From: Crocinitomicaceae bacterium
Lineage (GTDB): Bacteria; Bacteroidota; Bacteroidia; Flavobacteriales_D; Crocinitomicaceae
DNA length: 64,000 bases
Assembly (NCBI GenBank): GCA_017983465.1
Contig: JAGOBK010000002.1
Coordinates: 124,001-188,000 of the forward strand
Direction: 5' to 3'
A model generated the notes under the pieces. It did no database searches. It was given only the letters and a program-made list of their open reading frames with translations, and was not told the DNA's origin. The position numbers were made by a program, and so were the translations under genes. This document shows positions 11,252 to 31,112 of the stretch, in pieces; the stretch's first letter is position 1; every line of letters begins with the position of its first letter.

Positions 11252-11953
11252 TTATTTTGACATCACGAATCCAAAAATGGAAGACATGTGCTTAACTAAT
11301 TTTTGTTTGACTTCATCTATAGGTATTTTTCGACCTAGCTCTTTCTCCAAAGAAGTGACAGCTTTGTCATCTATACCGCACGGCACAATGTGTTGAAAAT
11401 AATTCAAATCTGAATTGATATTGAATCCAATTCCATGCATGGTAATCCACCGTGAGCATTTAACACCCATTGCACAAATTTTACGGGCGTTAGGGGTGTT
11501 GGGTTCTATCCAAACTCCAGTAAGTCCTTCATAGCGATCTGCATCAACGCCATATTCTTTCAAAGTCATGATGACAGCTTCCTCTAGAAACCTCAAATAT
11601 TTATGAATATCCGTGAAAAACTGTTCTAAATCAAGAATTGGGTACATCACGAGTTGTCCTGGACCATGATACGTAATATCACCTCCCCTATTGATTTTAT
11701 AGTATGAAGCAGATACTTCCGTCAACTGCAGGTCATTCAATAATAAATGTTCTTGCTTTCCACTTTTACCAAGGGTATATACGTGTGGATGCTCACAGAA
11801 AAGCAAATGATTAAGTGGTAAATTCGCTGAATTATTGATGCGATTTGAAACTTTAAGGTCTACAGATTCCTTCAATAAGGACTCTTGTATGTCCCAAGCC
11901 TCTTTGTAATCAATTAATCCAAGGTCCTGAACCTGAACCAGTGGTGTTTCCAT
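11252..11953 (-). CDS. lipB: Octanoyl-[ACP]:protein N-octanoyltransferase
   Basis: 233 aa. LipB moves octanoate from acyl carrier protein to the lipoyl domains of pyruvate and 2-oxoglutarate dehydrogenases and GcvH, before LipA inserts sulfur. Visible motifs are RGGDITYHGPGQLVMYP (89-105), catalytic Lys165 in AMGVKCSRW, HGIGFNIN, and catalytic Cys192 in VPCGI. Both catalytic residues are present, so the enzyme should be active. lipA is not in the window. A TACATTTG box 77 nt upstream is a likely promoter, just beyond the end of the giant gene. Confidence 0.96.
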   Translation of the reverse strand: METPLVQVQDLGLIDYKEAWDIQESLLKESVDLKVSNRINNSANLPLNHLLFCEHPHVYTLGKSGKQEHLLLNDLQLTEVSASYYKINRGGDITYHGPGQLVMYPILDLEQFFTDIHKYLRFLEEAVIMTLKEYGVDADRYEGLTGVWIEPNTPNARKICAMGVKCSRWITMHGIGFNINSDLNYFQHIVPCGIDDKAVTSLEKELGRKIPIDEVKQKLVKHMSSIFGFVMSK

Positions 11954-12030
11954 TAAAATTTAACAATTGCTGATTCATCAGAAACATTCTGAGGAAATAA
12001 TACTAAAAACTCTATCATTCTGTTAATTTG

Positions 12031-12038
12031 CAAATGTA
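12031..12038 (-). promoter_or_regulatory. Putative lipB -7 element TACATTTG
   Basis: Minus strand TACATTTG fits TAnnTTTG and lies in the 126-nt gap between the end of the giant gene and the lipB ATG. A clear -33 TTTG at standard spacing is not seen. No hairpin terminator is visible for the giant gene in this gap. Confidence 0.4.
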
Positions 12039-12079
12039 AAGTTACAAGAATGATTTAAACTTGTCCTACAAACTTCATT

Positions 12080-15000
12080 TTACCTCAATGTGGTAACGTG
12101 TCCAACCAGAACTCTAGTCTCTCCTTTATTATCTGTATATCTTATTTTCCAAGTATAAACTCCAAGTTGTACATCCTTGTTGTCTTTGTATCTTCCATTC
12201 CATCCTTCGGATACGATGTCGGTTTCCCATACCAATTGTCCCCATCGGTTGTAGATCTCCATCTGATAACTCTTCATGATGTCCACATTCGAGAAAACTG
12301 GTAAGAATACATCATTGATATTATCTCCGTTGATCGTCAAGGTATTCGGTACATAAACATTCAACAATTCAACCAAACTGAACTCGTAGGATGCCGTATC
12401 CACACAACCATTTGTATCAACGATCGTTAAGGTCACCTCGTAATTCGCTGCTTGCTGATCTGGATAATAATGAATCGGGTTTTCCAACGTTGAGTTCGGA
12501 CTGCCGTCTCCAAATGTCCATAGGTAATCCGTTATGTCTCCATCAGATGTGTTGAGTAAAACCAACTGTCCAGTGTAATAATCGATTCCCGGTGTGCTTG
12601 CGGAAAAACTTGCATCTGGTCCTGAAACCACACATACCAAACTATCCGTGCTCATTGTATCGGCACAGCCTGCTGCATTCGATACAATCAAACTAATATC
12701 ATAACATCCCGGTTGGGTAAACGTCGTGATGCCATTTTGGGTCGTTGCACTTGTCGCATTTCCAAAGTTCCATAAACTATTTGTGTATGGTCCACTGCTA
12801 TTATTTGTAAAGGTTACACTCAACGGAGAACAACCAAAAGTTGTACTTGGATTGAAATAAGCGACGATTGGAGCAGGTTCGGTAATCGTGAAACTCAATG
12901 GAGTCTCGCATCCCTGAGCATCTGTGACAAGTACGCTATAGTTACCTGCTACCAGCGAATCGATGTCCACAATCGTGTCGCCCGTTGACCACAAGATGTC
13001 ATAAGACGGTAAACCGCCACTTATCACCAAACTAATTTCCGCATCACTTCCTCCAAAACACGATACATTATTTACGACAGGATTGACGAGCATAGGATTA
13101 ATTGGGTCTTCTACTGTAAGTGTAGTAATTAGGACACAACCTAGAATATCTGTAATGGTTACGGTATAATCACCAGACGCAAGACTATCAATATCCTGTG
13201 TTGTTTCACCATTACTCCATGAGTAATTATATGCTGGCGTACCGCCATTCATTGTTAAATCAATCCATCCTGTTGGGTCATTTAAACAGATCAGATTAAC
13301 AATTGAATTCGTTGTTGTAATTTCTGATTGTGGTTGCGTAATAGTCACGTTCATGGTTTGACTACAGTTCAAACTATCCGTCACTAATACGGTGTATGTA
13401 CCAATTGGTAATCCACTGATCGTTGAGGTAGTCTGACCATTATTCCACAAGTAATCATAACTCGGTGTTCCTCCTTGACTTTGGATGTTGATGATACCAT
13501 TCGTTCCGCCGTAACAACTCACATTCGTTTGTGTTGAACTGATACTCAAACCTTGGTTTGGCTCCGTAATCGTCGTTTGACTTGTAGAAGTACAGCCGTT
13601 CGCATCGGTTACCAATACACTGTAATTTCCTACAGGCAAATTGAAAATATCTTCTGTTGTTGCTCCTGTTGACCAGCTATACGTATACGGGAATGTTCCT
13701 CCTACTGTATTCAAATTGATGAAGCCTGTTGATGCACCAGTACAACTCACATTCACTTGGCTAATGCTCAAGGTTAATGGTTGAACAGGCTGCGTAATTG
13801 TATAACTAGAACTTACCGTACAGTTATTGTCATCAGTAATCGTTAAACTATACGTTCCTGGTGGGAGGTTGATCAAATCTTGATTACTTGAACCGATGTT
13901 CCAACTGTAATCATACGTTCCTACACCTCCGGTTACACTGATGTCCAAGGATCCGTTACCAAATCCGTAACAACTGACATTCGTTTGAACCACCGTTGGG
14001 GTAATCAAAGCTGGTTGACTCACAACAATGGTGTCTTGAGTCACACAACCGATACCATCCGTTACCATTAACACATAACTTCCTGCAATGACACCAAAGA
14101 TATCTTCTGTTGGTGATACAAATCCCGAAGGACCTTGCCAAAAATATGTATATGGTAAAGCGCCACCAACTGCTGTAGCGTTGATCCATCCTGTACTATT
14201 GCCAAAGCATAAAATGTTGTTAACCGTACTCGAAATAACAGCCTCTGAACTTGGTTGGCTGACATAATAACTCGATGTGATCACACAACCGTTGAAATCA
14301 GTAACTGTGACCGTATAAGTTCCAAAACTTAAATTTGCTAGATCTTCTGACGTAGCACCATTAGACCAAGAATAAAAATAAGGTCCAGCGCCTCCGACTA
14401 CTGTCACATCGATCCCACCTGTACTTTGACCGTAACACTGAACATTTGAAATGACACCAGAAACCAATAACGGACTTGGATTTTGAAGAGTAACTGTGGC
14501 TGAATCGAGGCATCCGTTTACATCCTCAACAAATACTTCATAAGTGGCTGCAGGTAAATTAAAGATATCCTCGTTTGTAGATCCGGTAGACCAATTGATT
14601 TGATACGGTCCAACTCCACCTGTGATGGTTAAATCAACAGAGCCCGTTGATGAATTAAAACATGTTAATCCAACGCCAGTAGTACTTAACATCATTGGTG
14701 TCAACGGAGCGGTAATGGTAAAACTTTGAGCTTGAGTACAGCCATTAAAATCTGTCACATTTATTCCGTAACTACCCGCGCCTAGTCCATATAAATCTTG
14801 TGTCGTCTGACCTGATAACCACAAATATGTATATCCAGGTGTTCCTCCCTCTACAGTAATATTGATACTTGCAGATAACGTTCCAAAGCATCCAACATTT
14901 TGGACAACACTTGTTATGGTGATTGGTTGGTTTGGTTGTGTTGTAAGTGTAATGAGTGTATCGATACATCCCAATGCATCCGTTATAACCAAGGTGTCAT

Positions 15001-18000
15001 TGCCCGCAGGTACGTTCCAAATATCTTGGGTCTGTGCTCCTGTATTCCATTGGTAAGTGTATGGCGTTGCGCCTCCACTTACGGTAACGTTTACGGAGCC
15101 ATTGCTTCCTCCGTAACATTGTACTGGGGTACTCACATAAGTAGCACTCACCCCAATTGGATTCTGTAATGATACCGATTGAGTCGCTATACATCCATTC
15201 GCATCGGTTACCGTCACAAAGTAGATTCCCGCGGTGATAAATCCGATGTCTTGGGTTGTTGCGTTTGTATTTGGTCCACTCCAAGCATAGCCATATGGTT
15301 GCGTTCCGCCGTTCACCGTCAAGTCTATTGAACCTGTTGCCGTACTTGGACACAATGGATTACTTGTATTGACTATCAAACTCATTGCTTGTGGTTGTGT
15401 CACTACTGTACTCGTCGTTACTTGACAACCACCTGCATCCGTTACGACCACCGTGTAGGTTCCTTGGGCTACGTTGCTAAGATCTTGTGTCGTTGCTTGG
15501 TTGCTCCATGTATAATTATACGGACTATTTCCGCCCGTAACCGTTAAATCTATTCCGCCCGTTCCTGATCCAGTACAGCTCACGTTGGTCAATGTTGTAC
15601 TTGTACTCAAGATAGAACTTGGTTGACTCACACTAAACGTTTGACTTGTCAAACATCCTTGTTGGTCGGTCACTGAAACGATGTAACTTCCAGCTAATAT
15701 TCCGCTCAAATCTTGCGTCGTTTGTGTGTTACTCCATGAGTACGTAAATGGAGCAGTACCTCCAATAACAGTAGCATCGATTGCTCCTGTATTTTGTCCA
15801 AAACACGCAACTGGTGTTACTTGTGCCGTGATGCCGTAGAAACTTGGTTGAGTAACCGTGTCTTGCAAAGTAGAACTACAGCCATTTCCATCGGTAACGG
15901 TTACCGTGTAAATTCCTGCGGCTAAGTTTTGTAAATCTTGTGAGGTACTTCCTGTATTCCAAGCATATGTGTAAGGTATTGTTCCGCCAGTAACAGTCAA
16001 GTTCAATTGACCATTTGAACCTCCATAACAACCGCTCGGTGTTTGAACACTTGTCAAGGTTAATGGACTCGAACTTTGTTGAACCACATACGTTTGTTGA
16101 ACGTAACAACCATTCGCATCATTCACTGCCACAACATATGAACCGGCAGGAATATTTGTTAGATCTTCATTTGTTAGTGTCCCATTCCATAAATAATTAT
16201 ATGGACTTGTTCCACCAGTAGCGGTAATGTTAATCGAACCGGTACTTCCTCCATAACACAAGACTTGTCCAATAACACTCGTTACAGTCATCGGAACGCT
16301 CGGTTGACTGATTAATGTCGATCCACTTGCCGTACAACCATTACCATCAGTCACAACAACATTGTATCCCCCCGGACTTAAACCAAAGATATCCTGGCTA
16401 CTTGTACCATTGTTCCAAAGGTAACTGTAACCTAAAGTTCCTCCATTTACAATTAAATCAACTGCACCTGAAGTCTGACCGAAACATGGAATATTCGTCG
16501 GGACTAAGGATACTGTTAGCGGTGCAGAAGGCTGAGAAATTGTTAATGGATTTGAGGAAAGACAACCATTAAAGTCATATACTGTTAATGTATAAACTCC
16601 AGCAATCATGTTTGAGATATCTTGTGTTCCAGGTCCATTACTCCAGTTGTACGTATACGGAGCTACTCCTCCGGTCACTGTCACATCAATCGATCCTGTT
16701 GGGTTACCGTAGCACAAGACATCTGTTACCAAGGCCTGTACATTCATCGCCGTGGATGGCTGTCCTATGTTTACGGATTGTGTTAACAAACATCCATCAT
16801 CATCTGTCACTGTAACACTATAAACACCCGGTGTTAAACTGTCTATGTCCTGTGTGGTTTGACCATTGCTCCATAAATAACTGAATGGAAATCCTGTTCC
16901 ACTAACCGTTAAATTGATTACTCCATTCGAGCCGCCATAACAACTGACATCTACATGTGTCTCCGTGGCAGTCATACTCACTGGCGGTTGACTGACCGTT
17001 TGTGTCGATGTGAAGATACATCCATTGGCATCCAAGATGCTCAATGTGTATACTCCTGCCAATAAATTCGTTAAATCTTCTGTGCTTGATCCTGTATTCC
17101 ACTGGTATTGGTAGGGAAGTGTTCCTCCGCTCACTGTGTTGTTGATCGAGCCTCCATTCACACCAAAACACGTGTTATTGGTCACTACACTACTCATCGT
17201 GATCGCACTTTGAGGTTGATAAATCGTGTCTGAGAATGTTGAACTACAGCCATTGTCATCTAGGACCGTTACAAAATAAGGACCCGCAACTTGATTCACG
17301 ATGACAGAACCTGTTAGGCCATTCGTCCATGAATAACTATATGGTGCTACTCCACCACTCGCTTGTGCAACAATCCCACCCGATGACTGTCCGTAACACA
17401 GAATATTCGTGTTGACACTTTGCATCGTGATTGGACTAGGCTGCGTGATCGTCCAGCTTTGGGTCGCGTTACAACCATAATTGTCCGAAACTATAACGCT
17501 ATAAATACCAGCTGGTATTCCCGTTAAGGTCGATGACGTTGAACCAGTACTCCATAAATACGTGTAGACTCCTGTTCCACCTGTACCTTGTGCAGCGATG
17601 CTTCCAGTTGTTCCACCATGACAAATTACATTAGCGGAAATTCCTGTTACGCCAACCAATGCACTTGGCTGAGTTACTTGTATCGTTAAACTTCCTGTAC
17701 AACCATTCGCATCTGTTACAACAACTGAATAAGTTCCCGCGGGTACATTCGATAAATCTTGTGTCGTTACACCGTTATTCCATGCATAACTATACGGTCC
17801 AGTGCCTCCACTTACCGTTAAATTTATAAAGCCGTTACTCAATCCGGTACAACTCACCGAACTTGTCGATTGAATCAAGGTTAAAGCGCTCAATGGTTGA
17901 CCAACATTCACTGTGTCTGCCAATAAACATCCATTCGCATCTTGTATCGTAACCGAATATTGACCGCCAGTTATCGTTGTTAAATCTTGAGTCGTGGTGC

Positions 18001-20938
18001 CGTTACTCCAACTATACGTATAGCCCGGAACTCCGCCTGATACACTTAAATCAACACTACCTGTCGGTGTGCCAAAACACAAAGCTGAAGTTGGATACAA
18101 GGTCATGGATATTGCTGAACTTGGTTGCGTCAAAGAACTACTAAAAACGGCAGAACAACCATTGGCATCGGACATCGTAACAGAATAAGTTCCTGCCGGT
18201 AAATTATAAATATCTTCCGTCGTTGCTCCATTACTCCAAACGAATGAATAAATTGGTGTTCCTCCAGTTAATGCAAGTGTTACTGCTCCTGTTGTATCTC
18301 CGTAACAAAGCACATTCGTTGATAATGAAGTAAAGGTTAATGGAGCGTCCGGTTGAGTAATAGGAAAAGATTGACCCAAAACACATCCAGAGTTATCAGT
18401 AACTGAAACAGTATATGTGCCCGCAGATAAATTAGAAAGATCTTGAAGTTGAAGTCCATTAGACCAAGTGGTAACATACCCTGGAGTACCTCCTGAAATC
18501 GTTAAATCAATTCCTCCATTAGCACCACCGAAGCAACTTACATTATTTACAACGGATGTAATATTGAGTCCGTTAGCCGGATTGTCAATTACAGCTGTAA
18601 TGGTATCCATACAATCGTTATTGTCTGAAACGATCAAGGTATAAGAACCAATAGGAAGATTCGCTAAATCCTCAATTGTTGCTGCATTACTCCATGAATA
18701 TGTATAAGGAGCCGTTCCACCTGAAACGGAAACATTGATAGAACCTGTACTATAGCCCACACAAATCAAGTCTACATTTGTCTCACTCGCTGAAATAGCA
18801 GATAGTGGTTGAGATATTGTTGCTGAAATATTTGCTGCACAGTTATTGAAATCTGTGACAGAAACGCTGTATGTTCCGGAAGTTAATCCACCAATATCCT
18901 GAGTACTGGCATTATTTGACCATGCATAAGCGTAAGGAGGAGATCCACCAAGAACCGATAAATTAATTTGTCCAGTTGCACCCGAAAAACAAGCCACATT
19001 CTGTTGAGTCGTAGAAAGTGTTAAGGCGGCATAAAGTTCTGCTAACGCAACATTCAAACTAGTATTACAGCTGTTTGCATCCGTTATTTGGACTGTATAA
19101 CTTCCTGCGGCAATTGCCGAGGCATCTTCCGTTGTTAATCCATTGCTCCAAAGAAATGAATATGGTGCAGTTCCACCATTCACTGTTAAATTCACAGTTC
19201 CGGTTGCTGTTCCCGCGCAAATTACATCTGTATGCGTTTCACTTACGGAGACCGATGCTGACGGCTCAGTTACGACAAAGGTTTGATTTGCAGAACACGT
19301 ATTGGCGTCTGTCACTGTCACCGTATATGAACCGGCGTTTATTCCCGAAATATCCTGAGAAGTTGCATTAACTGACCAAAAATAGGAATAGGGTGATACA
19401 CCACCTGTTACATTTAAATCGATTGCACCAGATGATTGACCAAAACAACCGGCATTTGTAATAGTTCCTGTTAACGCTAATGCAGTGGGACCATTTGCAA
19501 TATTTATTGGACCTAAATTAGCTGAACAACCGTTCGCATCGGAAACAGTCACAGAATAATCACCAGCTGACAAATTTCCAATATCTTGAGTCGTTTGACC
19601 ACTACTCCATACATATTGATAAGATGGTACACCACCTGTTACTGTCAAATCGATACTTCCAGTACCATTTGCACAAGGAATATCTATATTCGTTTGAGAC
19701 AGAGAAATTGGAGATGGTTCACTCACATTAAAATAATATGCATTACTCGAATTACAACCCAAATTATCTGTCAAGGTTAATTGATAAAAGCCTGTACCTA
19801 ATCCTGTCAAATCTTCTGTAGTCGCACCATTTGACCAGCCAAACACATATGGTTGTACTCCACCCAAAGCAGTAATATTAACGGCTCCATTTAATAATCC
19901 ATTACAAGTAATATTTGTTGTTACATTACCCACAACAATTTGACTATTTTGAAGTATGGTTTTAGTTGCAGTTGCTGGACAATTATTTGCGTCAGTTATG
20001 TTCACGGTATAATTTCCGGCTGGAATACCGATTAAGTCTTGTGTTGTTAAACCATTATCCCAACTATATTGATATGGACTCGTTCCTCCAGACATGGTCA
20101 AATCCAATGAGCCAGTACTTTGACCATAACAAGTAACGTTGATTTGTGTTGTAGTTGCTGTTAAAATTGGAGGTTGTGTAATTTGAACAGGCATATTTAC
20201 TTGACAACCTTTATTATCCGTTACGGTTAGATTGTAATTCCCAGCGTCAAGATTTATTAAATTTTGATTGTTGTTATTGTTATTCCAAAGAAAACTATAA
20301 GGCAAAGTTCCACCGCTTACATTGGTAGTTATCGTTCCGTTGAATTGTCCAAAACATAAAACATTTGTATGTGTTTCCGTCACAGATAACAATGTTGGTT
20401 GAGTTAAGGTGTACGCTCCTGAAATTGAACATCCATTATTGTCAGTTACCTGTACTGAATAATTACCAGCTGTTATAGATGATAAATCTTCGATTGTTGA
20501 ACCATTCGACCAATTGTAGGTGTATGGTTGAGTTCCATTTCCTGGAACGATATTTATTGCTCCATTATTAAACCCAAAACATGTTGGATTTGTAATGATT
20601 TCCTCCAAGGTTAAAATTTGATTGGATTGAATTGTTTCTGTAATACTTACGACACAATTATTTCCATCTGTTACAGTGCACGTGTAAGTACCGTCTATAA
20701 CATTTGAAAGATCTTGTGTTGTAGCACCATTTGTCCACGAATATGAAAATGGAGAGGAACCACCAGTTAGGGAAACATCAATTCCGCCTGTTGATTGTCC
20801 AGCACAAATACTTGTGTTGACAACTGCTGAAAGTGTAGGACACTGTGCCGCAACATTTCCTTTATAAAAAAGAATACTGCATACAACAAGTAATCTCCAA
20901 ACTCCACTCAATTTATTTTTAACGTAATATCGTAACAT
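12080..20938 (-). CDS. Giant SprB-repeat T9SS surface protein A
   Basis: 2952 aa. Signal peptide 1-31 (…NVAAQ); about 35 SprB repeats of ~76 residues (roughly 33-2690), each with a C-F/Y-G motif, GGTxPYxYxWSNG, TTQDLxNLxAGxY and VTDANGC; two PKD-like domains (LWNFGNA, YLWTFGDGSP); and a C-terminal gliding-motility/type B sorting domain starting near VYVPNTLTINGDNINDVF and ending GHVTTLR. SprB of Flavobacterium johnsoniae is a motile cell-surface adhesin, so adhesion or gliding is the likely role. Its ATG lies in the last 20 nt of giant gene B, in another frame. From repeat 13 on it is collinear and often identical with B. Confidence 0.93.
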   Translation of the reverse strand: MLRYYVKNKLSGVWRLLVVCSILFYKGNVAAQCPTLSAVVNTSICAGQSTGGIDVSLTGGSSPFSYSWTNGATTQDLSNVIDGTYTCTVTDGNNCVVSITETIQSNQILTLEEIITNPTCFGFNNGAINIVPGNGTQPYTYNWSNGSTIEDLSSITAGNYSVQVTDNNGCSISGAYTLTQPTLLSVTETHTNVLCFGQFNGTITTNVSGGTLPYSFLWNNNNNNQNLINLDAGNYNLTVTDNKGCQVNMPVQITQPPILTATTTQINVTCYGQSTGSLDLTMSGGTSPYQYSWDNGLTTQDLIGIPAGNYTVNITDANNCPATATKTILQNSQIVVGNVTTNITCNGLLNGAVNITALGGVQPYVFGWSNGATTEDLTGLGTGFYQLTLTDNLGCNSSNAYYFNVSEPSPISLSQTNIDIPCANGTGSIDLTVTGGVPSYQYVWSSGQTTQDIGNLSAGDYSVTVSDANGCSANLGPINIANGPTALALTGTITNAGCFGQSSGAIDLNVTGGVSPYSYFWSVNATSQDISGINAGSYTVTVTDANTCSANQTFVVTEPSASVSVSETHTDVICAGTATGTVNLTVNGGTAPYSFLWSNGLTTEDASAIAAGSYTVQITDANSCNTSLNVALAELYAALTLSTTQQNVACFSGATGQINLSVLGGSPPYAYAWSNNASTQDIGGLTSGTYSVSVTDFNNCAANISATISQPLSAISASETNVDLICVGYSTGSINVSVSGGTAPYTYSWSNAATIEDLANLPIGSYTLIVSDNNDCMDTITAVIDNPANGLNITSVVNNVSCFGGANGGIDLTISGGTPGYVTTWSNGLQLQDLSNLSAGTYTVSVTDNSGCVLGQSFPITQPDAPLTFTSLSTNVLCYGDTTGAVTLALTGGTPIYSFVWSNGATTEDIYNLPAGTYSVTMSDANGCSAVFSSSLTQPSSAISMTLYPTSALCFGTPTGSVDLSVSGGVPGYTYSWSNGTTTQDLTTITGGQYSVTIQDANGCLLADTVNVGQPLSALTLIQSTSSVSCTGLSNGFINLTVSGGTGPYSYAWNNGVTTQDLSNVPAGTYSVVVTDANGCTGSLTIQVTQPSALVGVTGISANVICHGGTTGSIAAQGTGGTGVYTYLWSTGSTSSTLTGIPAGIYSVIVSDNYGCNATQSWTITQPSPITMQSVNTNILCYGQSSGGIVAQASGGVAPYSYSWTNGLTGSVIVNQVAGPYFVTVLDDNGCSSTFSDTIYQPQSAITMSSVVTNNTCFGVNGGSINNTVSGGTLPYQYQWNTGSSTEDLTNLLAGVYTLSILDANGCIFTSTQTVSQPPVSMTATETHVDVSCYGGSNGVINLTVSGTGFPFSYLWSNGQTTQDIDSLTPGVYSVTVTDDDGCLLTQSVNIGQPSTAMNVQALVTDVLCYGNPTGSIDVTVTGGVAPYTYNWSNGPGTQDISNMIAGVYTLTVYDFNGCLSSNPLTISQPSAPLTVSLVPTNIPCFGQTSGAVDLIVNGGTLGYSYLWNNGTSSQDIFGLSPGGYNVVVTDGNGCTASGSTLISQPSVPMTVTSVIGQVLCYGGSTGSINITATGGTSPYNYLWNGTLTNEDLTNIPAGSYVVAVNDANGCYVQQTYVVQQSSSPLTLTSVQTPSGCYGGSNGQLNLTVTGGTIPYTYAWNTGSTSQDLQNLAAGIYTVTVTDGNGCSSTLQDTVTQPSFYGITAQVTPVACFGQNTGAIDATVIGGTAPFTYSWSNTQTTQDLSGILAGSYIVSVTDQQGCLTSQTFSVSQPSSILSTSTTLTNVSCTGSGTGGIDLTVTGGNSPYNYTWSNQATTQDLSNVAQGTYTVVVTDAGGCQVTTSTVVTQPQAMSLIVNTSNPLCPSTATGSIDLTVNGGTQPYGYAWSGPNTNATTQDIGFITAGIYFVTVTDANGCIATQSVSLQNPIGVSATYVSTPVQCYGGSNGSVNVTVSGGATPYTYQWNTGAQTQDIWNVPAGNDTLVITDALGCIDTLITLTTQPNQPITITSVVQNVGCFGTLSASINITVEGGTPGYTYLWLSGQTTQDLYGLGAGSYGINVTDFNGCTQAQSFTITAPLTPMMLSTTGVGLTCFNSSTGSVDLTITGGVGPYQINWSTGSTNEDIFNLPAATYEVFVEDVNGCLDSATVTLQNPSPLLVSGVISNVQCYGQSTGGIDVTVVGGAGPYFYSWSNGATSEDLANLSFGTYTVTVTDFNGCVITSSYYVSQPSSEAVISSTVNNILCFGNSTGWINATAVGGALPYTYFWQGPSGFVSPTEDIFGVIAGSYVLMVTDGIGCVTQDTIVVSQPALITPTVVQTNVSCYGFGNGSLDISVTGGVGTYDYSWNIGSSNQDLINLPPGTYSLTITDDNNCTVSSSYTITQPVQPLTLSISQVNVSCTGASTGFINLNTVGGTFPYTYSWSTGATTEDIFNLPVGNYSVLVTDANGCTSTSQTTITEPNQGLSISSTQTNVSCYGGTNGIINIQSQGGTPSYDYLWNNGQTTSTISGLPIGTYTVLVTDSLNCSQTMNVTITQPQSEITTTNSIVNLICLNDPTGWIDLTMNGGTPAYNYSWSNGETTQDIDSLASGDYTVTITDILGCVLITTLTVEDPINPMLVNPVVNNVSCFGGSDAEISLVISGGLPSYDILWSTGDTIVDIDSLVAGNYSVLVTDAQGCETPLSFTITEPAPIVAYFNPSTTFGCSPLSVTFTNNSSGPYTNSLWNFGNATSATTQNGITTFTQPGCYDISLIVSNAAGCADTMSTDSLVCVVSGPDASFSASTPGIDYYTGQLVLLNTSDGDITDYLWTFGDGSPNSTLENPIHYYPDQQAANYEVTLTIVDTNGCVDTASYEFSLVELLNVYVPNTLTINGDNINDVFLPVFSNVDIMKSYQMEIYNRWGQLVWETDIVSEGWNGRYKDNKDVQLGVYTWKIRYTDNKGETRVLVGHVTTLR
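12141..14304. repeat. Long direct repeat block 1, copy in gene A
   Basis: 2164 bp matching 20980-23143 at a constant offset of 8839 with no mismatch seen by eye. It covers most of the sorting domain, the PKD domains and about six SprB repeats. Identity stops sharply at 14304. Confidence 0.9.
14932..18120. repeat. Long direct repeat block 2, copy in gene A
   Basis: Matches 23774-26962 at constant offset 8842. Nearly identical from 14932 to about 15800, scattered mismatches to 16114, clearly diverged but same length from 16115 to about 16610, then nearly identical again to 18120. The change of offset from 8839 to 8842 is one codon, within 14305-14931. Confidence 0.88.
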
Positions 20939-23900
20939 GTCCTACTATTATTCGTGATACTGATTTATTATCCGTGTACCTTATTTTCCAAGTATAAACT
21001 CCAAGTTGTACATCCTTGTTGTCTTTGTATCTTCCATTCCATCCTTCGGATACGATGTCGGTTTCCCATACCAATTGTCCCCATCGGTTGTAGATCTCCA
21101 TCTGATAACTCTTCATGATGTCCACATTCGAGAAAACTGGTAAGAATACATCATTGATATTATCTCCGTTGATCGTCAAGGTATTCGGTACATAAACATT
21201 CAACAATTCAACCAAACTGAACTCGTAGGATGCCGTATCCACACAACCATTTGTATCAACGATCGTTAAGGTCACCTCGTAATTCGCTGCTTGCTGATCT
21301 GGATAATAATGAATCGGGTTTTCCAACGTTGAGTTCGGACTGCCGTCTCCAAATGTCCATAGGTAATCCGTTATGTCTCCATCAGATGTGTTGAGTAAAA
21401 CCAACTGTCCAGTGTAATAATCGATTCCCGGTGTGCTTGCGGAAAAACTTGCATCTGGTCCTGAAACCACACATACCAAACTATCCGTGCTCATTGTATC
21501 GGCACAGCCTGCTGCATTCGATACAATCAAACTAATATCATAACATCCCGGTTGGGTAAACGTCGTGATGCCATTTTGGGTCGTTGCACTTGTCGCATTT
21601 CCAAAGTTCCATAAACTATTTGTGTATGGTCCACTGCTATTATTTGTAAAGGTTACACTCAACGGAGAACAACCAAAAGTTGTACTTGGATTGAAATAAG
21701 CGACGATTGGAGCAGGTTCGGTAATCGTGAAACTCAATGGAGTCTCGCATCCCTGAGCATCTGTGACAAGTACGCTATAGTTACCTGCTACCAGCGAATC
21801 GATGTCCACAATCGTGTCGCCCGTTGACCACAAGATGTCATAAGACGGTAAACCGCCACTTATCACCAAACTAATTTCCGCATCACTTCCTCCAAAACAC
21901 GATACATTATTTACGACAGGATTGACGAGCATAGGATTAATTGGGTCTTCTACTGTAAGTGTAGTAATTAGGACACAACCTAGAATATCTGTAATGGTTA
22001 CGGTATAATCACCAGACGCAAGACTATCAATATCCTGTGTTGTTTCACCATTACTCCATGAGTAATTATATGCTGGCGTACCGCCATTCATTGTTAAATC
22101 AATCCATCCTGTTGGGTCATTTAAACAGATCAGATTAACAATTGAATTCGTTGTTGTAATTTCTGATTGTGGTTGCGTAATAGTCACGTTCATGGTTTGA
22201 CTACAGTTCAAACTATCCGTCACTAATACGGTGTATGTACCAATTGGTAATCCACTGATCGTTGAGGTAGTCTGACCATTATTCCACAAGTAATCATAAC
22301 TCGGTGTTCCTCCTTGACTTTGGATGTTGATGATACCATTCGTTCCGCCGTAACAACTCACATTCGTTTGTGTTGAACTGATACTCAAACCTTGGTTTGG
22401 CTCCGTAATCGTCGTTTGACTTGTAGAAGTACAGCCGTTCGCATCGGTTACCAATACACTGTAATTTCCTACAGGCAAATTGAAAATATCTTCTGTTGTT
22501 GCTCCTGTTGACCAGCTATACGTATACGGGAATGTTCCTCCTACTGTATTCAAATTGATGAAGCCTGTTGATGCACCAGTACAACTCACATTCACTTGGC
22601 TAATGCTCAAGGTTAATGGTTGAACAGGCTGCGTAATTGTATAACTAGAACTTACCGTACAGTTATTGTCATCAGTAATCGTTAAACTATACGTTCCTGG
22701 TGGGAGGTTGATCAAATCTTGATTACTTGAACCGATGTTCCAACTGTAATCATACGTTCCTACACCTCCGGTTACACTGATGTCCAAGGATCCGTTACCA
22801 AATCCGTAACAACTGACATTCGTTTGAACCACCGTTGGGGTAATCAAAGCTGGTTGACTCACAACAATGGTGTCTTGAGTCACACAACCGATACCATCCG
22901 TTACCATTAACACATAACTTCCTGCAATGACACCAAAGATATCTTCTGTTGGTGATACAAATCCCGAAGGACCTTGCCAAAAATATGTATATGGTAAAGC
23001 GCCACCAACTGCTGTAGCGTTGATCCATCCTGTACTATTGCCAAAGCATAAAATGTTGTTAACCGTACTCGAAATAACAGCCTCTGAACTTGGTTGGCTG
23101 ACATAATAACTCGATGTGATCACACAACCGTTGAAATCAGTAATCGTAACCGTGTATCCTCCTGCAGCAATATTTAACAAATCTTGCGTTGTTGCACCAT
23201 TAGACCAAGCATATGAATATGGTCCTGCACCACCGGTAACTGTCAAATCTAATGCACCAGTATTTTGATTGTAACACTGTAGATTGGTCTGATTCACACT
23301 CGCAGTAAGAGGTTGCGTCGGTGCTGTAATCGTTATTGAAGTTGAAAGCGTACACCCATTGTTATCCTGAACTGATACAGAATATAATCCAGCTAACAAT
23401 GATGATAAATCTTCAGTTGTTGCTCCATTATTCCATGTGATCAAGTATGGTGTTATGCCTCCTGAAACCGTTAAATTCACTGTTCCATCATTGTTTCCAA
23501 AGCACGTGATATTTGAACCCGTTATGGATAAATACATTTGGCTTCCAAGCTGATTGATTTGGAATGTATCAGTTGAAAAACATCCATTTGCATCATATAC
23601 TATCAAGCTATAAATTCCTGGATTTGAATTAAGTAAATCTTGGCCCGTATAACCATTTGACCATTGATAACTATATCCAGGTGTTCCGCCAATCATCGTA
23701 ACATCAATAGTTCCCGTTTGATTATTAAAACATCCAACATTTTGTATGGTACTTGTAATCGTGAGTGCTAATGTTGGTTGTGTTGTAAGTGTAACGAGTG
23801 TATCGATACATCCCAATGCATCCGTTATAACCAAGGTGTCATTGCCCGCAGGTACGTTCCAAATATCTTGGGTCTGTGCTCCTGTATTCCATTGGTAAGT

Positions 23901-26900
23901 GTATGGCGTTGCGCCTCCACTTACGGTAACGTTTACGGAGCCATTGCTTCCTCCGTAACATTGTACTGGGGTACTCACATAAGTAGCACTCACCCCAATT
24001 GGATTCTGTAATGATACCGATTGAGTCGCTATACATCCATTCGCATCGGTTACCGTCACAAAGTAGATTCCCGCGGTGATAAATCCGATGTCTTGGGTTG
24101 TTGCGTTTGTATTTGGTCCACTCCAAGCATAGCCATATGGTTGCGTTCCGCCGTTCACCGTCAAGTCTATTGAACCTGTTGCCGTACTTGGACACAATGG
24201 ATTACTTGTATTGACTATCAAACTCATTGCTTGTGGTTGTGTCACTACTGTACTCGTCGTTACTTGACAACCACCTGCATCCGTTACGACCACCGTGTAG
24301 GTTCCTTGGGCTACGTTGCTAAGATCTTGTGTCGTTGCTTGGTTGCTCCATGTATAATTATACGGACTATTTCCGCCCGTAACCGTTAAATCTATTCCGC
24401 CCGTTCCTGATCCAGTACAGCTCACGTTGGTCAATGTTGTACTTGTACTCAAGATAGAACTTGGTTGACTCACACTAAACGTTTGACTTGTCAAACATCC
24501 TTGTTGGTCGGTCACTGAAACGATGTAACTTCCAGCTAATATTCCGCTCAAATCTTGCGTCGTTTGTGTGTTACTCCATGAGTACGTAAATGGAGCAGTA
24601 CCTCCAATAACAGTAGCATCGATTGCTCCTGTATTTTGTCCAAAACAGGCAACTGGTGTTACTTGTGCGGTGATGCCGTAGAAACTTGGTTGAGTAACCG
24701 TGTCTTGCAAAGTAGAACTACAGCCATTACCATCGGTAACTGTTACCGTGTAAATTCCTGCTGCTAAGTTTTGTAAATCTTGTGAGGTGCTTCCTGTATT
24801 CCATGCGTAAACGTAAGGAACTGTTCCGCCAGTAACAGTCAAGTTCAATTGACCATTTGAACCTCCATAACAACCGCTCGGTGTTTGAACACTTGTCAAG
24901 GTTAATGGACTCGAACTTTGTTGAACGACATACGTTTGTTGAACGTAACAACCATTGTCATCAAAGACTTCCAAAACATACGTTCCAGATGGTAAACTAT
25001 CTAAATCCTCATTGAATAAAGAACCATTCCATAAATAATTATACGGACTTGTTCCTCCAGTAGCGGTAATATTAATCGAACCTGTGCTATCTCCATAACA
25101 CAATGCCTGTCCAACTACACCACTTACAGTCATCGGAACACTCGGTTGACTAATTAATGCCGAACCACTTATCGTACAACCATTACCATCGGTCACAACA
25201 ACATTGTATCCTCCCGGACTTAAACCAAAGAGGTCCTGGCTACTTGTACCATTGTTCCAAAGGTAGCTGTATCCTAAAGTTCCTCCATTTACAATTAAAT
25301 CAACTGCACCAGTTGGATTTCCACTACATGCAATTTGTGTTGGATTTAATTGAATAGACAAACCTATATTTGGTTGTTGGATGGGCACATTTAAATTTAC
25401 GATACATCCACCTTGGTCACTTACGGATAACTGATAATTTCCAGCAATCACATTTGAGATATCTTGTGTTCCAGGTCCGTTACTCCAGTTGTACATATAT
25501 GGAGCTACTCCTCCGGTCACTGTCACATCAATCGATCCTGTTGGGTTACCGTAGCACAAGACATCTGTTACCAAGGCCTGTACATTCATCGCCGTGGATG
25601 GCTGTCCTATGTTTACGGATTGTGTTAACAAACATCCATCATCATCTGTCACTGTAACACTATAAACACCCGGTGTTAAACTGTCTATGTCCTGTGTGGT
25701 TTGACCATTGCTCCATAAATAACTGAATGGAAATCCTGTTCCACTAACCGTTAAATTGATTACTCCATTCGAGCCGCCATAACAACTGACATCTACATGT
25801 GTCTCCGTGGCAGTCATACTCACTGGCGGTTGACTGACCGTTTGTGTCGATGTGAAGATACATCCATTGGCATCCAAGATGCTCAATGTGTATACTCCTG
25901 CCAATAAATTCGTTAAATCTTCTGTGCTTGATCCTGTATTCCACTGGTATTGGTAGGGAAGTGTTCCTCCGCTCACTGTGTTGTTGATCGAGCCTCCATT
26001 CACACCAAAACACGTGTTATTGGTCACTACACTACTCATCGTGATCGCACTTTGAGGTTGATAAATCGTGTCTGAGAATGTTGAACTACAGCCATTGTCA
26101 TCTAGGACCGTTACAAAATAAGGACCCGCAACTTGATTCACGATGACAGAACCTGTTAGGCCATTCGTCCATGAATAACTATATGGTGCTACTCCACCAC
26201 TCGCTTGTGCAACAATCCCACCCGATGACTGTCCGTAACACAGAATATTCGTGTTGACACTTTGCATCGTGATTGGACTAGGCTGCGTGATCGTCCAGCT
26301 TTGGGTCGCGTTACAACCATAATTGTCCGAAACTATAACGCTATAAATACCAGCTGGTATTCCCGTTAAGGTCGATGACGTTGAACCAGTACTCCATAAA
26401 TACGTGTAGACTCCTGTTCCACCTGTACCTTGTGCAGCGATGCTTCCAGTTGTTCCACCATGACAAATTACATTAGCGGAAATTCCTGTTACGCCAACCA
26501 ATGCACTTGGCTGAGTTACTTGTATCGTTAAACTTCCTGTACAACCATTCGCATCTGTTACAACAACTGAATAAGTTCCCGCGGGTACATTCGATAAATC
26601 TTGTGTCGTTACACCGTTATTCCATGCATAACTATACGGTCCAGTGCCTCCACTTACCGTTAAATTTATAAAGCCGTTACTCAATCCGGTACAACTCACC
26701 GAACTTGTCGATTGAATCAAGGTTAAAGCGCTCAATGGTTGACCAACATTCACTGTGTCTGCCAATAAACATCCATTCGCATCTTGTATCGTAACCGAAT
26801 ATTGACCGCCAGTTATCGTTGCTAAATCTTGAGTCGTGGTGCCGTTACTCCAGCTATACGTATAGCCCGGAACTCCGCCTGATACACTTAAATCAACACT

Positions 26901-29900
26901 ACCAGTCGGTGTGCCAAAACACAAAGCTGAAGTTGGATACAAGGTCATGGATATTGCTGAACCCGGTTGATTGACTATCCCGCTATAATTTGACGTACAA
27001 CCATTTAAATCTGTGACAACAACAGAATATGTTCCAGCAGTAAGGTTGTAAATATCCTGAGTTGTTGATCCAGTATTCCATAGATATGAAAAACCTGGAG
27101 TTCCCCCAGTAATGGTTAAGTCGACGATTCCATTGGTATCCCCTAGGCATACTACATTGTATACCGTTCCCGCGATTGTTAATGGAAGTGCTGGTTGAGT
27201 AACATTGAAACTCAAGAAAACACCACAACCCAAAACGTCCTCGACATTTACATAATATTGTCCAGGAGAAAGATTGGTGATATCCTCCTCTACAGCTCCT
27301 GTTCCCCAGTCAAATACATATCCTGGAAATCCGCCACTTGGACTTAGGTTAATATCCCCATCAGCTCCACCAAAACAATTTACGTTTCCAACTAGGGAAG
27401 TAACAGCAACCGTATTGGATGGATCTAGAATAGGCACTAACAAGACCTCTGGACAACCATTAGAATCGAAGACAGTTACTTCATAATTACCATTTTGTAG
27501 TGCCGAAATATCTTGTGTGGTAGCGCCATTATTCCAACTATACGTATACCCTGGAGTTCCCCCAGAAACACTGATATTGATTGATCCTGCAACAGAATCT
27601 AAACAATTTGCATTTGTATGAGTTTCGGTAATTAAAGTCGAAGATGTTGGTTCCGTTAGCGCTAAAGAAATCGTTTCCGTACAATTATTTGCATCGGTAA
27701 CAACAACGGAATAAGTTCCTGCTGGAACCTGAGATATGTCTTCCGTTGTACTTCCATTTGACCATAAAAAATTAAAAGGAGAAACACCACCAGCAACCAC
27801 TAAATTAACTGAACCTGTAGAATCATACTGACATAAAACATCTTGTCCGGAAATGCTCAGTAAAATAGGCACCGCCAAATTTTGAATCGTTACAGTTAAT
27901 GAATCCGCACAGCCATTTCCGTCCTCAACTTGTACTTCATAAGTCCCTGCTGCGACCGTCAATTGATCTTCCACAAAAACGGAGTTATCCCAGAAGAAAG
28001 AGTATGGTGCTGTTCCACCAGAAGTTGTTAAGTCAATCGATCCAGGACCAAAACAACCGGCATCCGTATGCGTTTCAGATAACGTAAGTGGATTTTGCGG
28101 TTGAGTCACAAGAAAATTACCTGTTAAAAAACATTGATGATCATCAAGGATATCCACTGAATAATTGCCAGCTAAAAGGCTATTGATGTTTTGCGTTGTC
28201 TGAGAGTTATTCCATAAAAAGGTATATCCTGGAGTTCCACCAGAAACAGCAATATTCACCGCTCCATTTGAATTTCCATAACAGCCAATAGGCGTAACAA
28301 GACCAGAGAAAGATAGCGGTGCTGTTGGCTGTTGAATCGTTGCTCCATAAGAAACCGTACAATTGTTTGCATCGGTTACAAGTACAGAATAAAATCCTGT
28401 GGGTAAATTTGAAAGATCTTCGGTAGTTTGAGCAGTCGACCATGAAAATTGATATCCGGGTGTTCCGCCATTCACCGTTAGGTTTATCGAACCTGTTGAC
28501 TCACCATAACATAAAACATCAACTTGTGTATGGGAACATGACAATGGTTGATTCGGTTGAAGAACTGTTGACGTAAGGGAGTCAACACATCCATTAATAT
28601 CTGTAACGTTTATTTCATATGCTCCAGATACCAAGTTATTTATGGATTGATTCACTGGACCATTTGACCAAAGGATTGAATAAGGAAAGACTCCTCCTGT
28701 AATTGTCGCATTCACTGAACCGTTATTCCCTCCAAAACATAAAACATTTTGAATGACAGAAGATATTTGAATATCTGAAGGATGGGTTAATGTAATCGAA
28801 GAAACAGATGAACATCCGTTTGCATCCGTTACGGTCACTGTATACGTTCCAGCACTTAAACCGGTTAAAACTGAAGTTGTTTGTCCGTTTGACCAAGCAT
28901 ATGAGTAAGGTGATGTTCCGCCGGTTACTGTTGCGTTTACAGAACCATCTGAATAATTAAAGCAGGAGATATCGTATCCATTATAATTAAATACACTGGA
29001 AGTGGAAACACTTAATAAATTAGGTTGTGTAATGGAAAACACTGTGTCAGTGATACAGGTATTAACATCCTGAACAGTTAAATTATAGTTTCCTGGGGCT
29101 AATCCTGATAATCCGTTTGTTGTGTTGTTCGTTGACCATAGATAAGAAATAGGATTCGAACCTTGCGCACTTGTTAAGATAGATCCATTTGCAGCATTAA
29201 AGCATGTTACATTTGTTAAATTAACCAATGAAACGATTGGAAGTGGATTTACAACGACACTATTTGTTAAGTTGTTAAATGTACATGATGAACCATTAAA
29301 TGATATATCTAATTCATAAACTCCAGAATTTAACAAGCTAATATTTGAAACGGAAGGATTGTGAATCGTGGATGAAAATCCTTGAGGTCCAGACCAAAAA
29401 TAATTTGCCCACGGGGAATAAGCAGCACTTAATTGAAGCGTATCACCTGGACATAAAGGATCGTTCACAGTAAAATCTACCGATGGACAATTGGCAGTAG
29501 AAATTGTTAATTCATTATTTGAGGACGTTGGACAGCCAAACGCATCATAAACATCAGAGGTTCCATTATTAGTCACCAGGTTTCCAGATAAATTTCCAGT
29601 ACCAAAAATGTATGCTTTGTTTTCAAGCGTGCTATCACAAGATAGAATTAAACAATCAGATGAAACCTGAACTTGAAATCGAATAGCTGTGCTATCTGCA
29701 CCGGTAGGTGAATTAATCATCTGACCCCCTAGAGAAGCCGTAGCACCAGTTCCTACGCGTGTTTTTATCACCCTATTCACCGCATCATATTCTGCTTGGT
29801 CATCACCACTTGCGTCTGTCTTAGCCCCAACAAACGGACCATTTAAATACGTTATCGAATTAGGAATATAGGAAGTTCGAATATCCAATGTATCCGTCAT

Positions 29901-31112
29901 GAATGTATTCAATGAAATATCCGACCCAATATTTTTTCCAATAACAGTATATTCAAGGATATCACCCGGTAAAACAACTCCTCCATTTATATCATTCACA
30001 TAAACCGTCGCTCTTAAATCTGGCTCATAGATATCAATTGCTGATGTAAGTACACGTGTTAAAATTGTTTCAGAAGAGGTTGTCACACGAATGTTAGCCG
30101 AGGATGCTCCATTATTTAAGTAATTCTGTGCAGTATTATTTGGGATATAAACAGTTGCATCATAACCTAGTGTATTATTGTAGCTTGGAACCCTAAACGG
30201 GGTTAACACACCATTGTATGCAATCGTACTGTTAAACATATCAGTAGCCGAGTGAAGTCCGTCAGTTACTTGCACATAATTTGATGCAACACCATTAAAC
30301 AACAATTGATCTCCAGTTTGAGACCTGTCACCATCGTATGCGATGACACCCAACTCGAAATTCACTCCACCGGATAAAGGAGTTAAAAATCCTGATATCG
30401 GAATTGTTACTGTATTCGAAGCTGTTCCTTGACTTACATTTGCTAATCCGTCAAAAACAGTTAAGTTTTTATATGATTCCGCTGTATTTTTATAGACAAC
30501 AACGATTGACCAACCACCAAATAAATTGGTTGAATTTACTTGGTTAATCTGATCGGCAACTGTAAATCGAGCTTTTATTCCTGCGGATTGAACGATGGAA
30601 GTAATGTCTTTGAAACAAAAATAGGTTACTGATCCAGTCGTATTATTAAGCGTTTGGTCGGCAATTAATTGTTGGTAACTTCCATTACCTACTTTGATTT
30701 TAATTTGACTTCGATTTGCGTAATTGGAAGTTGAGGTTGTAATTTTTCCACCCCAATACAATCCAGCCCACGTAATTTCAGAGCAATTAGCAAGATTCAA
30801 ACTATCACTTGAGGACATAAAGGTTGTTGGGTCACCATCGATGTCAACATAACTCATCGTATAACTATTGTTCTGACCTGACCCAGAAGGAGGAATCTGG
30901 TTTTGTGCACTTGTACAACTTGTGCCAGAATTACACGTTACTGAGACGTTTGAGACAAAACGAATGCCTCCCTTTTGTTGAATTTGGTTCCTGATCGCAA
31001 ATGGACTAACCACCTGCGAAAAAACATGAATCGAAAAGATCCCCGACAAGAGAATTAAGGTGAAAAAGAAAACATTAAGTCTTTTGGCAGCGTATTTTTT
31101 CAATTCATTCAT
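20919..31112 (-). CDS. Giant SprB-repeat T9SS surface protein B with unique N-terminal domain
   Basis: 3397 aa. Signal peptide 1-32 (…IHVFSQ). A unique region of about 580 residues follows, containing ITWAGLYWGGKI and FGGWSIVVVYKN (a beta-sandwich as in DUF3344/isopeptide-type adhesin tips) and a DUF11-like segment (LPGDILEYTVIGKNIGSD). About 33 SprB repeats span roughly 620-3130, then two PKD-like domains and a type B T9SS sorting domain ending GHVTILR. Repeats 11-33 align one to one with repeats 13-35 of protein A. It precedes gene A, overlapping it by 20 nt. Neighbours are pccB and gene A; no PorP/SprF-type partner gene is adjacent. Confidence 0.93.
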   Translation of the reverse strand: MNELKKYAAKRLNVFFFTLILLSGIFSIHVFSQVVSPFAIRNQIQQKGGIRFVSNVSVTCNSGTSCTSAQNQIPPSGSGQNNSYTMSYVDIDGDPTTFMSSSDSLNLANCSEITWAGLYWGGKITTSTSNYANRSQIKIKVGNGSYQQLIADQTLNNTTGSVTYFCFKDITSIVQSAGIKARFTVADQINQVNSTNLFGGWSIVVVYKNTAESYKNLTVFDGLANVSQGTASNTVTIPISGFLTPLSGGVNFELGVIAYDGDRSQTGDQLLFNGVASNYVQVTDGLHSATDMFNSTIAYNGVLTPFRVPSYNNTLGYDATVYIPNNTAQNYLNNGASSANIRVTTSSETILTRVLTSAIDIYEPDLRATVYVNDINGGVVLPGDILEYTVIGKNIGSDISLNTFMTDTLDIRTSYIPNSITYLNGPFVGAKTDASGDDQAEYDAVNRVIKTRVGTGATASLGGQMINSPTGADSTAIRFQVQVSSDCLILSCDSTLENKAYIFGTGNLSGNLVTNNGTSDVYDAFGCPTSSNNELTISTANCPSVDFTVNDPLCPGDTLQLSAAYSPWANYFWSGPQGFSSTIHNPSVSNISLLNSGVYELDISFNGSSCTFNNLTNSVVVNPLPIVSLVNLTNVTCFNAANGSILTSAQGSNPISYLWSTNNTTNGLSGLAPGNYNLTVQDVNTCITDTVFSITQPNLLSVSTSSVFNYNGYDISCFNYSDGSVNATVTGGTSPYSYAWSNGQTTSVLTGLSAGTYTVTVTDANGCSSVSSITLTHPSDIQISSVIQNVLCFGGNNGSVNATITGGVFPYSILWSNGPVNQSINNLVSGAYEINVTDINGCVDSLTSTVLQPNQPLSCSHTQVDVLCYGESTGSINLTVNGGTPGYQFSWSTAQTTEDLSNLPTGFYSVLVTDANNCTVSYGATIQQPTAPLSFSGLVTPIGCYGNSNGAVNIAVSGGTPGYTFLWNNSQTTQNINSLLAGNYSVDILDDHQCFLTGNFLVTQPQNPLTLSETHTDAGCFGPGSIDLTTSGGTAPYSFFWDNSVFVEDQLTVAAGTYEVQVEDGNGCADSLTVTIQNLAVPILLSISGQDVLCQYDSTGSVNLVVAGGVSPFNFLWSNGSTTEDISQVPAGTYSVVVTDANNCTETISLALTEPTSSTLITETHTNANCLDSVAGSINISVSGGTPGYTYSWNNGATTQDISALQNGNYEVTVFDSNGCPEVLLVPILDPSNTVAVTSLVGNVNCFGGADGDINLSPSGGFPGYVFDWGTGAVEEDITNLSPGQYYVNVEDVLGCGVFLSFNVTQPALPLTIAGTVYNVVCLGDTNGIVDLTITGGTPGFSYLWNTGSTTQDIYNLTAGTYSVVVTDLNGCTSNYSGIVNQPGSAISMTLYPTSALCFGTPTGSVDLSVSGGVPGYTYSWSNGTTTQDLATITGGQYSVTIQDANGCLLADTVNVGQPLSALTLIQSTSSVSCTGLSNGFINLTVSGGTGPYSYAWNNGVTTQDLSNVPAGTYSVVVTDANGCTGSLTIQVTQPSALVGVTGISANVICHGGTTGSIAAQGTGGTGVYTYLWSTGSTSSTLTGIPAGIYSVIVSDNYGCNATQSWTITQPSPITMQSVNTNILCYGQSSGGIVAQASGGVAPYSYSWTNGLTGSVIVNQVAGPYFVTVLDDNGCSSTFSDTIYQPQSAITMSSVVTNNTCFGVNGGSINNTVSGGTLPYQYQWNTGSSTEDLTNLLAGVYTLSILDANGCIFTSTQTVSQPPVSMTATETHVDVSCYGGSNGVINLTVSGTGFPFSYLWSNGQTTQDIDSLTPGVYSVTVTDDDGCLLTQSVNIGQPSTAMNVQALVTDVLCYGNPTGSIDVTVTGGVAPYMYNWSNGPGTQDISNVIAGNYQLSVSDQGGCIVNLNVPIQQPNIGLSIQLNPTQIACSGNPTGAVDLIVNGGTLGYSYLWNNGTSSQDLFGLSPGGYNVVVTDGNGCTISGSALISQPSVPMTVSGVVGQALCYGDSTGSINITATGGTSPYNYLWNGSLFNEDLDSLPSGTYVLEVFDDNGCYVQQTYVVQQSSSPLTLTSVQTPSGCYGGSNGQLNLTVTGGTVPYVYAWNTGSTSQDLQNLAAGIYTVTVTDGNGCSSTLQDTVTQPSFYGITAQVTPVACFGQNTGAIDATVIGGTAPFTYSWSNTQTTQDLSGILAGSYIVSVTDQQGCLTSQTFSVSQPSSILSTSTTLTNVSCTGSGTGGIDLTVTGGNSPYNYTWSNQATTQDLSNVAQGTYTVVVTDAGGCQVTTSTVVTQPQAMSLIVNTSNPLCPSTATGSIDLTVNGGTQPYGYAWSGPNTNATTQDIGFITAGIYFVTVTDANGCIATQSVSLQNPIGVSATYVSTPVQCYGGSNGSVNVTVSGGATPYTYQWNTGAQTQDIWNVPAGNDTLVITDALGCIDTLVTLTTQPTLALTITSTIQNVGCFNNQTGTIDVTMIGGTPGYSYQWSNGYTGQDLLNSNPGIYSLIVYDANGCFSTDTFQINQLGSQMYLSITGSNITCFGNNDGTVNLTVSGGITPYLITWNNGATTEDLSSLLAGLYSVSVQDNNGCTLSTSITITAPTQPLTASVNQTNLQCYNQNTGALDLTVTGGAGPYSYAWSNGATTQDLLNIAAGGYTVTITDFNGCVITSSYYVSQPSSEAVISSTVNNILCFGNSTGWINATAVGGALPYTYFWQGPSGFVSPTEDIFGVIAGSYVLMVTDGIGCVTQDTIVVSQPALITPTVVQTNVSCYGFGNGSLDISVTGGVGTYDYSWNIGSSNQDLINLPPGTYSLTITDDNNCTVSSSYTITQPVQPLTLSISQVNVSCTGASTGFINLNTVGGTFPYTYSWSTGATTEDIFNLPVGNYSVLVTDANGCTSTSQTTITEPNQGLSISSTQTNVSCYGGTNGIINIQSQGGTPSYDYLWNNGQTTSTISGLPIGTYTVLVTDSLNCSQTMNVTITQPQSEITTTNSIVNLICLNDPTGWIDLTMNGGTPAYNYSWSNGETTQDIDSLASGDYTVTITDILGCVLITTLTVEDPINPMLVNPVVNNVSCFGGSDAEISLVISGGLPSYDILWSTGDTIVDIDSLVAGNYSVLVTDAQGCETPLSFTITEPAPIVAYFNPSTTFGCSPLSVTFTNNSSGPYTNSLWNFGNATSATTQNGITTFTQPGCYDISLIVSNAAGCADTMSTDSLVCVVSGPDASFSASTPGIDYYTGQLVLLNTSDGDITDYLWTFGDGSPNSTLENPIHYYPDQQAANYEVTLTIVDTNGCVDTASYEFSLVELLNVYVPNTLTINGDNINDVFLPVFSNVDIMKSYQMEIYNRWGQLVWETDIVSEGWNGRYKDNKDVQLGVYTWKIRYTDNKSVSRIIVGHVTILR
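20980..23143. repeat. Long direct repeat block 1, copy in gene B
   Basis: Partner of 12141-14304, no mismatch seen over 2164 bp. Sequence 5' of 20980, covering the last few codons of the sorting domain and the stop, differs between copies. Confidence 0.9.
23774..26962. repeat. Long direct repeat block 2, copy in gene B
   Basis: Partner of 14932-18120, with the same graded pattern of identity. Between blocks 1 and 2 (23144-23773 here) the copies encode clearly different versions of about 2.7 SprB repeats. Confidence 0.88.

Follow-up and report, generated by a model that had tools for sequence, protein, structure and literature searches.

Two adjacent giant genes of SprB repeats, here called A and B, appear to be an old tandem pair whose downstream halves are subject to recurrent, in-register, segmental gene conversion, i.e., concerted evolution; from the sequence comparisons, we put the probability of this reading at about 0.88. 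The pair lies in a stretch of 64,000 nucleotides (the window) from a genome of 2.56 Mb in 13 contigs, the nearest named relatives of which are MAGs labelled Crocinitomicaceae. In the window and in two relatives, G002 and G077, the paralogues of one genome are more alike over the homogenised tracts than are the orthologues of different genomes. At the same time, unconverted segments (the island and patch 1 of Table 1) keep their orthology, and the borders of the tracts are sharp or graded. The original prediction of repeated conversion between the neighbours thus receives strong support from G002, G077, contig forks and tract trees that group by species. The net effect that we see is homogenisation, not diversification.

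The gene pair and its mosaic

The open reading frames of A and B overlap by 20 bp, and their coordinates agree with the original prediction. The repeat unit is ~76 aa long, and tandem repeats scoring above the cut-off of the Pfam SprB family (PF13573) number 33 in A and 35 in B, the same counts that had been made by eye. Both proteins carry a C-terminal domain above the cut-off for CHU_C/TIGR04131, and T9SS genes are present in the genome, which also encodes SprA, GldB and 9 PorP/SprF-family proteins. All of the latter genes lie elsewhere, none being found beside A or B or anywhere in the 64-kb window. Within the N-terminal region of A (29253-31112), codons ~514-616 weakly match the repeating domain of Aureispira GhpA, and many genomes of the genus conserve the region ahead of them, which has no Pfam family. 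At the other end of the locus, a SIS-domain gene (sugar-phosphate isomerase-like, by eye) separates B from a lipoyl ligase gene in several relatives (L093, L094 and L096) and is missing at this junction in the window (11953-12080) and in Ww9.

Table 1. Coordinates of A, B and their segments in the window.
Feature	Positions	Strand	Remarks
Gene A	20919-31112	minus	3397 aa; N-terminal domain, SprB repeats, PKD domains, type B T9SS C-terminal signal
Gene B	12080-20938	minus	2952 aa; SprB repeats, PKD domains, type B T9SS C-terminal signal
Front part of A	26963-31112	minus	Repeats not homogenised with B
Front part of B	18121-20938	minus	Not homogenised with A
Tract T1 in A	25501-26962	minus	Near-identical to B; includes 1321 exact bp
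Tract T1 in B	16659-18120	minus	Near-identical to A
Patch 1 in A	24648-25500	minus	Diverged from B, graded edge; A-type also in G077; homogenised in G002
Patch 1 in B	15806-16658	minus	B-type shared with G077 and G035
Tract T2 in A	23796-24647	minus	852 exact bp
Tract T2 in B	14954-15805	minus	852 exact bp
Island in A	23144-23795	minus	Three repeats; unhomogenised in window, G077 and G002
Island in B	14305-14953	minus	B-type shared with G077, G035 and G080
Tract T3 in A	20980-23143	minus	2164 exact bp
Tract T3 in B	12141-14304	minus	2164 exact bp
Last 61 bp of A	20919-20979	minus	Unhomogenised
Last 61 bp of B	12080-12140	minus	Unhomogenised

As had been proposed, A and B align in register across ~23 repeats. 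Upstream of A codon 1384, nucleotide identity is ~53%; from there, the order is T1, patch 1, T2, island, T3 and the differing last 61 bp. Exact tracts of 1321, 852 and 2164 bp alternate with the diverged patches, the longest being the mismatch-free stretch described in the original prediction, and dS between A and B is 0-0.02 in T1, T2 and T3. The diverged stretch of ~630 bp that had been reported next to it corresponds to the island, which measures 652 bp in A and 649 bp in B, with 56.6% nucleotide identity and synonymous sites near saturation. The second diverged patch, described as equal in length to the first, does exist but is of a different kind, milder, ~850 bp long with a graded edge, and with a core of 77% nucleotide identity (dS ~0.65); it is younger than the island. 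The longest identical runs span 720, 439 and 284 codons, and no run exceeded 88 codons when the differing codons were shuffled 2000 times. The mosaic is therefore far beyond chance, and divergence is non-uniform, as anticipated. Tandem Repeats Finder reported no repeats in the region, because those inside one gene are too dissimilar.

Borders and alleles in related genomes

A complete tandem A/B pair is present at the same locus in G002. Its genes share only ~52-63% DNA identity with their orthologues in the window, yet 94.8% with one another over 6.2 kb. The homogenised part begins at the same codon border as in the window, and the island and the gene end are likewise unhomogenised; patch 1, diverged in the window, is homogenised in G002. 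The best matches of the G002 islands fit descent by paralogue (55% versus 50%). Gene B of G002 (L069/L070) is a frame of 4876 codons, ~1.9 thousand codons beyond B of the window, and its extra front repeats are not homogenised with A.

G077 is much closer to the window (front half of A, 90.5% nucleotide identity, dS 0.43). Here, patch 1 and the island are diverged between the paralogues, T2 is nearly identical and T3 mostly so. Between the window and G077, dS is ~0.4-0.7 across T1-T3. Set against the values for T3 (0.54-0.71), the absence of any difference within its 720 codons between A and B of the window indicates that the latest T3 exchange was very recent. For the same pair of genomes, the front half of A gives a dN/dS ratio of ~0.05, tracts T2 and T3 give 0.04-0.1, and the island gives 0.06-0.07; by this measure, orthologous island and tract sequences are under purifying selection. 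A of G077 (L205) has an additional, species-specific diverged patch at codons 2976-3125 of window A, where the window copies are identical. Comparison with relatives, suggested as a way to see which patches swap, uncovered states that differ among species, namely those of patch 1 and of the G077 patch, but no swapped modules among the loci compared.

Trees of T2 plus T3 group sequences by species, with the pairs of G002 and G077 each supported at 100/100 and the window pair identical. The island tree groups them by paralogue: A of the window joins A of G077 (100/100), and B of the window joins B of G077, G035 and G080. Forcing the two window islands together is rejected (p-AU ~1e-53 for protein and 1e-71 for DNA), as is the same constraint on patch 1 (p-AU ~1e-100). 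The island split likely predates the G002 lineage, although the tree support leaves this unsettled (91/93 for protein, 67/57 for DNA; alternative p-AU 0.136).

Contig ends in other relatives point to the same borders. G080 and G072 each have a short contig made up of the end of A and the front half of B. The A contig and this A-end/B contig stop at codon 1427 of window A in G080, equivalent to codon 983 of window B, and at codons 1430 and 986, respectively, in G072, an offset of 444 codons at both forks. The contigs holding the fronts of A and B share their exact final 119 bp in G080, 127 bp in G072 and 121 bp in G077, which is how a de Bruijn graph behaves at the edge of sequence present twice. 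Among 24 A contigs, a non-random sample in which many were picked for a frame open at the contig end, 11 end at codons 1423-1440 of window A and 3 at codons 1385, 1459 and 1471; for the remaining mapped ones, mostly from more remote species, the last codon is 1275 or falls within 1499-1597. For 9 of the 11 contigs ending at 1423-1440, the bin holds a single copy of the tract start, and the second copy is inferred. Twelve downstream contigs begin inside roughly the final 20-460 bp of B. A tandem SprB pair in G005 (L084, 1962-15838), with proteins of 2188 and 2400 aa that both have an A-type N-terminal region, was considered as a second homogenised case and rejected, its matched pieces being ~66% identical; tandem SprB genes are hence not homogenised as a rule.

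Gene conversion and its alternatives

The pattern would be explained by homologous recombination between direct repeats that lie ~8.8 kb apart, in the same orientation and in register, with recurrent conversion holding the downstream halves near-identical in each genome while the species diverge. Conversion would halt where the copies are too different, i.e., at A codon ~1384, at the island (A codons ~2440-2657, three repeats) and ~60 bp ahead of the stop codon; the front halves, the island and the end retain the old A-type and B-type alleles. Exchange is therefore segmental, leaving two genes in place, and since the repeats inside one gene stay dissimilar, misaligned exchange is rare. We suggest that the molecular step is RecA-type conversion and that heterology sets the tract borders; the graded edges beside diverged stretches fit the latter. 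Gene conversion is the simplest account, paired (reciprocal double) crossovers leaving identical traces.

The identical tracts might instead be one collapsed sequence written twice by the assembler. Exact repeats of more than 2 kb are hard to assemble, the contigs of most relatives break exactly there, and the 2-kb exact identity in one assembly could partly reflect consensus copying. However, the layout recurs in independent assemblies from other species: the two tails of G077, on separate contigs, carry the same tracts apart from small differences, and the differences between A and B of G002 are scattered, mostly synonymous and near tract edges. In addition, three assemblies fork at k-mer length, which requires sequence that is really shared, and an artefact is hence hardly credible. 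Recent re-duplication or unequal crossing-over, by which the downstream half would be copied afresh in each lineage as copy number changes, accounts for the near-identity of long tracts and suits tandem repeats of one orientation. Yet a single crossover or a fresh copy would erase the island or alter gene number, whereas two genes have been kept in unchanged order, the front halves and the A- and B-type islands persist through species splits, and the island alleles are conserved by paralogue in the window, G077, G035 and G080, making this process very improbable.

Patch states that vary by species (patch 1, homogenised in G002, and the G077 allele of A described above) are what would be expected if cassettes from other positions or genes had recombined into A or B and thereby varied adhesion, as the terms "diversifying cassettes" and "module swapping" in the original prediction implied. 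Nevertheless, the nearest relative of every patch is the orthologous position, and no other donor was found among the loci compared. The patch repeats retain their number and register, some of the edges cut through repeats, and dN/dS is ~0.04-0.1 in orthologues of the island and tracts. The patches are thus better described as old positional alleles, and this part of the original prediction, improbable on the present evidence, is not supported.

Predicted fold, precedents and implications

A confident structure model (pLDDT 92.8), computed from 39 aligned three-repeat stretches taken solely from the window, consists of all-beta domains. Its best solved matches are filament fragments of the Aureispira grappling-hook protein GhpA (PDB 9flp, 9flw series; E 2.7e-8, TM 0.66), followed by Ig-domain chains. 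Accordingly, the SprB repeats are predicted to form a rod of Ig-like domains, which implies neither a hook nor an adhesion target, and A and B presumably have a surface or adhesive role. The predicted repeat fold is similar to that of GhpA, its nearest solved structure, but sequence identity is only 20-27%, and one domain of A matches weakly. Membership in the GhpA family on the basis of E 4e-73 was rejected, as this score is summed over many weak repeats (best single stretch, ~5e-6). A and B also resemble the gliding adhesin SprB of Flavobacterium johnsoniae (PMC7807042, PMC12635249) in SprB repeats, giant size and the type B T9SS signal, and in having SprA, GldB and PorP/SprF-family genes elsewhere in the genome. 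Unlike that protein, encoded in a sprBCDF operon, they have no adjacent SprF-family gene, and the N-terminal region of A differs in kind, as far as annotated.

The close precedents are the adhesin genes babA/babB of Helicobacter pylori and hagA/kgp/rgpA of Porphyromonas gingivalis. In the former, as in homA/homB, the 3' segments of paralogues are alike within a strain (Pride and Blaser 2002, as related in PMC3960876). As in A and B, concerted evolution there is segmental, other parts staying paralogue-specific; babA/babB encode outer-membrane proteins unrelated to A and B and were compared among strains of one species, whereas A and B are giant tandem repeat proteins with borders conserved between species. 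The P. gingivalis genes, from the same phylum, also encode surface proteins and have identical adhesin repeats common to several genes, which break short-read assemblies, and strain-level domain rearrangement and allelic exchange have been reported (PMC5266723). Their adhesin domains differ from those of A and B, which are homogenised in register with no rearrangement seen. Full-text literature searches returned no match for Crocinitomicaceae with SprB and, for SprB with gene conversion, only a fish-pathogen genome paper. Adhesin paralogues that undergo segmental concerted evolution are thus already known, and the notable feature here is the long conservation of its borders.

It is conceivable, if doubtful, that A and B together form one composite surface filament, in the manner of GhpA subunits, and that conversion is the upkeep mechanism of this two-part filament. 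Were this so, selection would match the downstream halves for co-assembly, the front halves and the island would give each subunit its identity, and the conversion borders would be held in place across the genus. On the practical side, short-read genomes break SprB-type genes at predictable points, and counts of these genes easily go wrong. Finally, the codons at which homogenisation starts, is interrupted by the island and ends are shared by species with no more than about one-half to two-thirds DNA identity between their genes. The pair therefore offers a clean multi-species natural experiment on how much divergence stops conversion, and on whether it is selection, or heterology only, that shields the unconverted islands.
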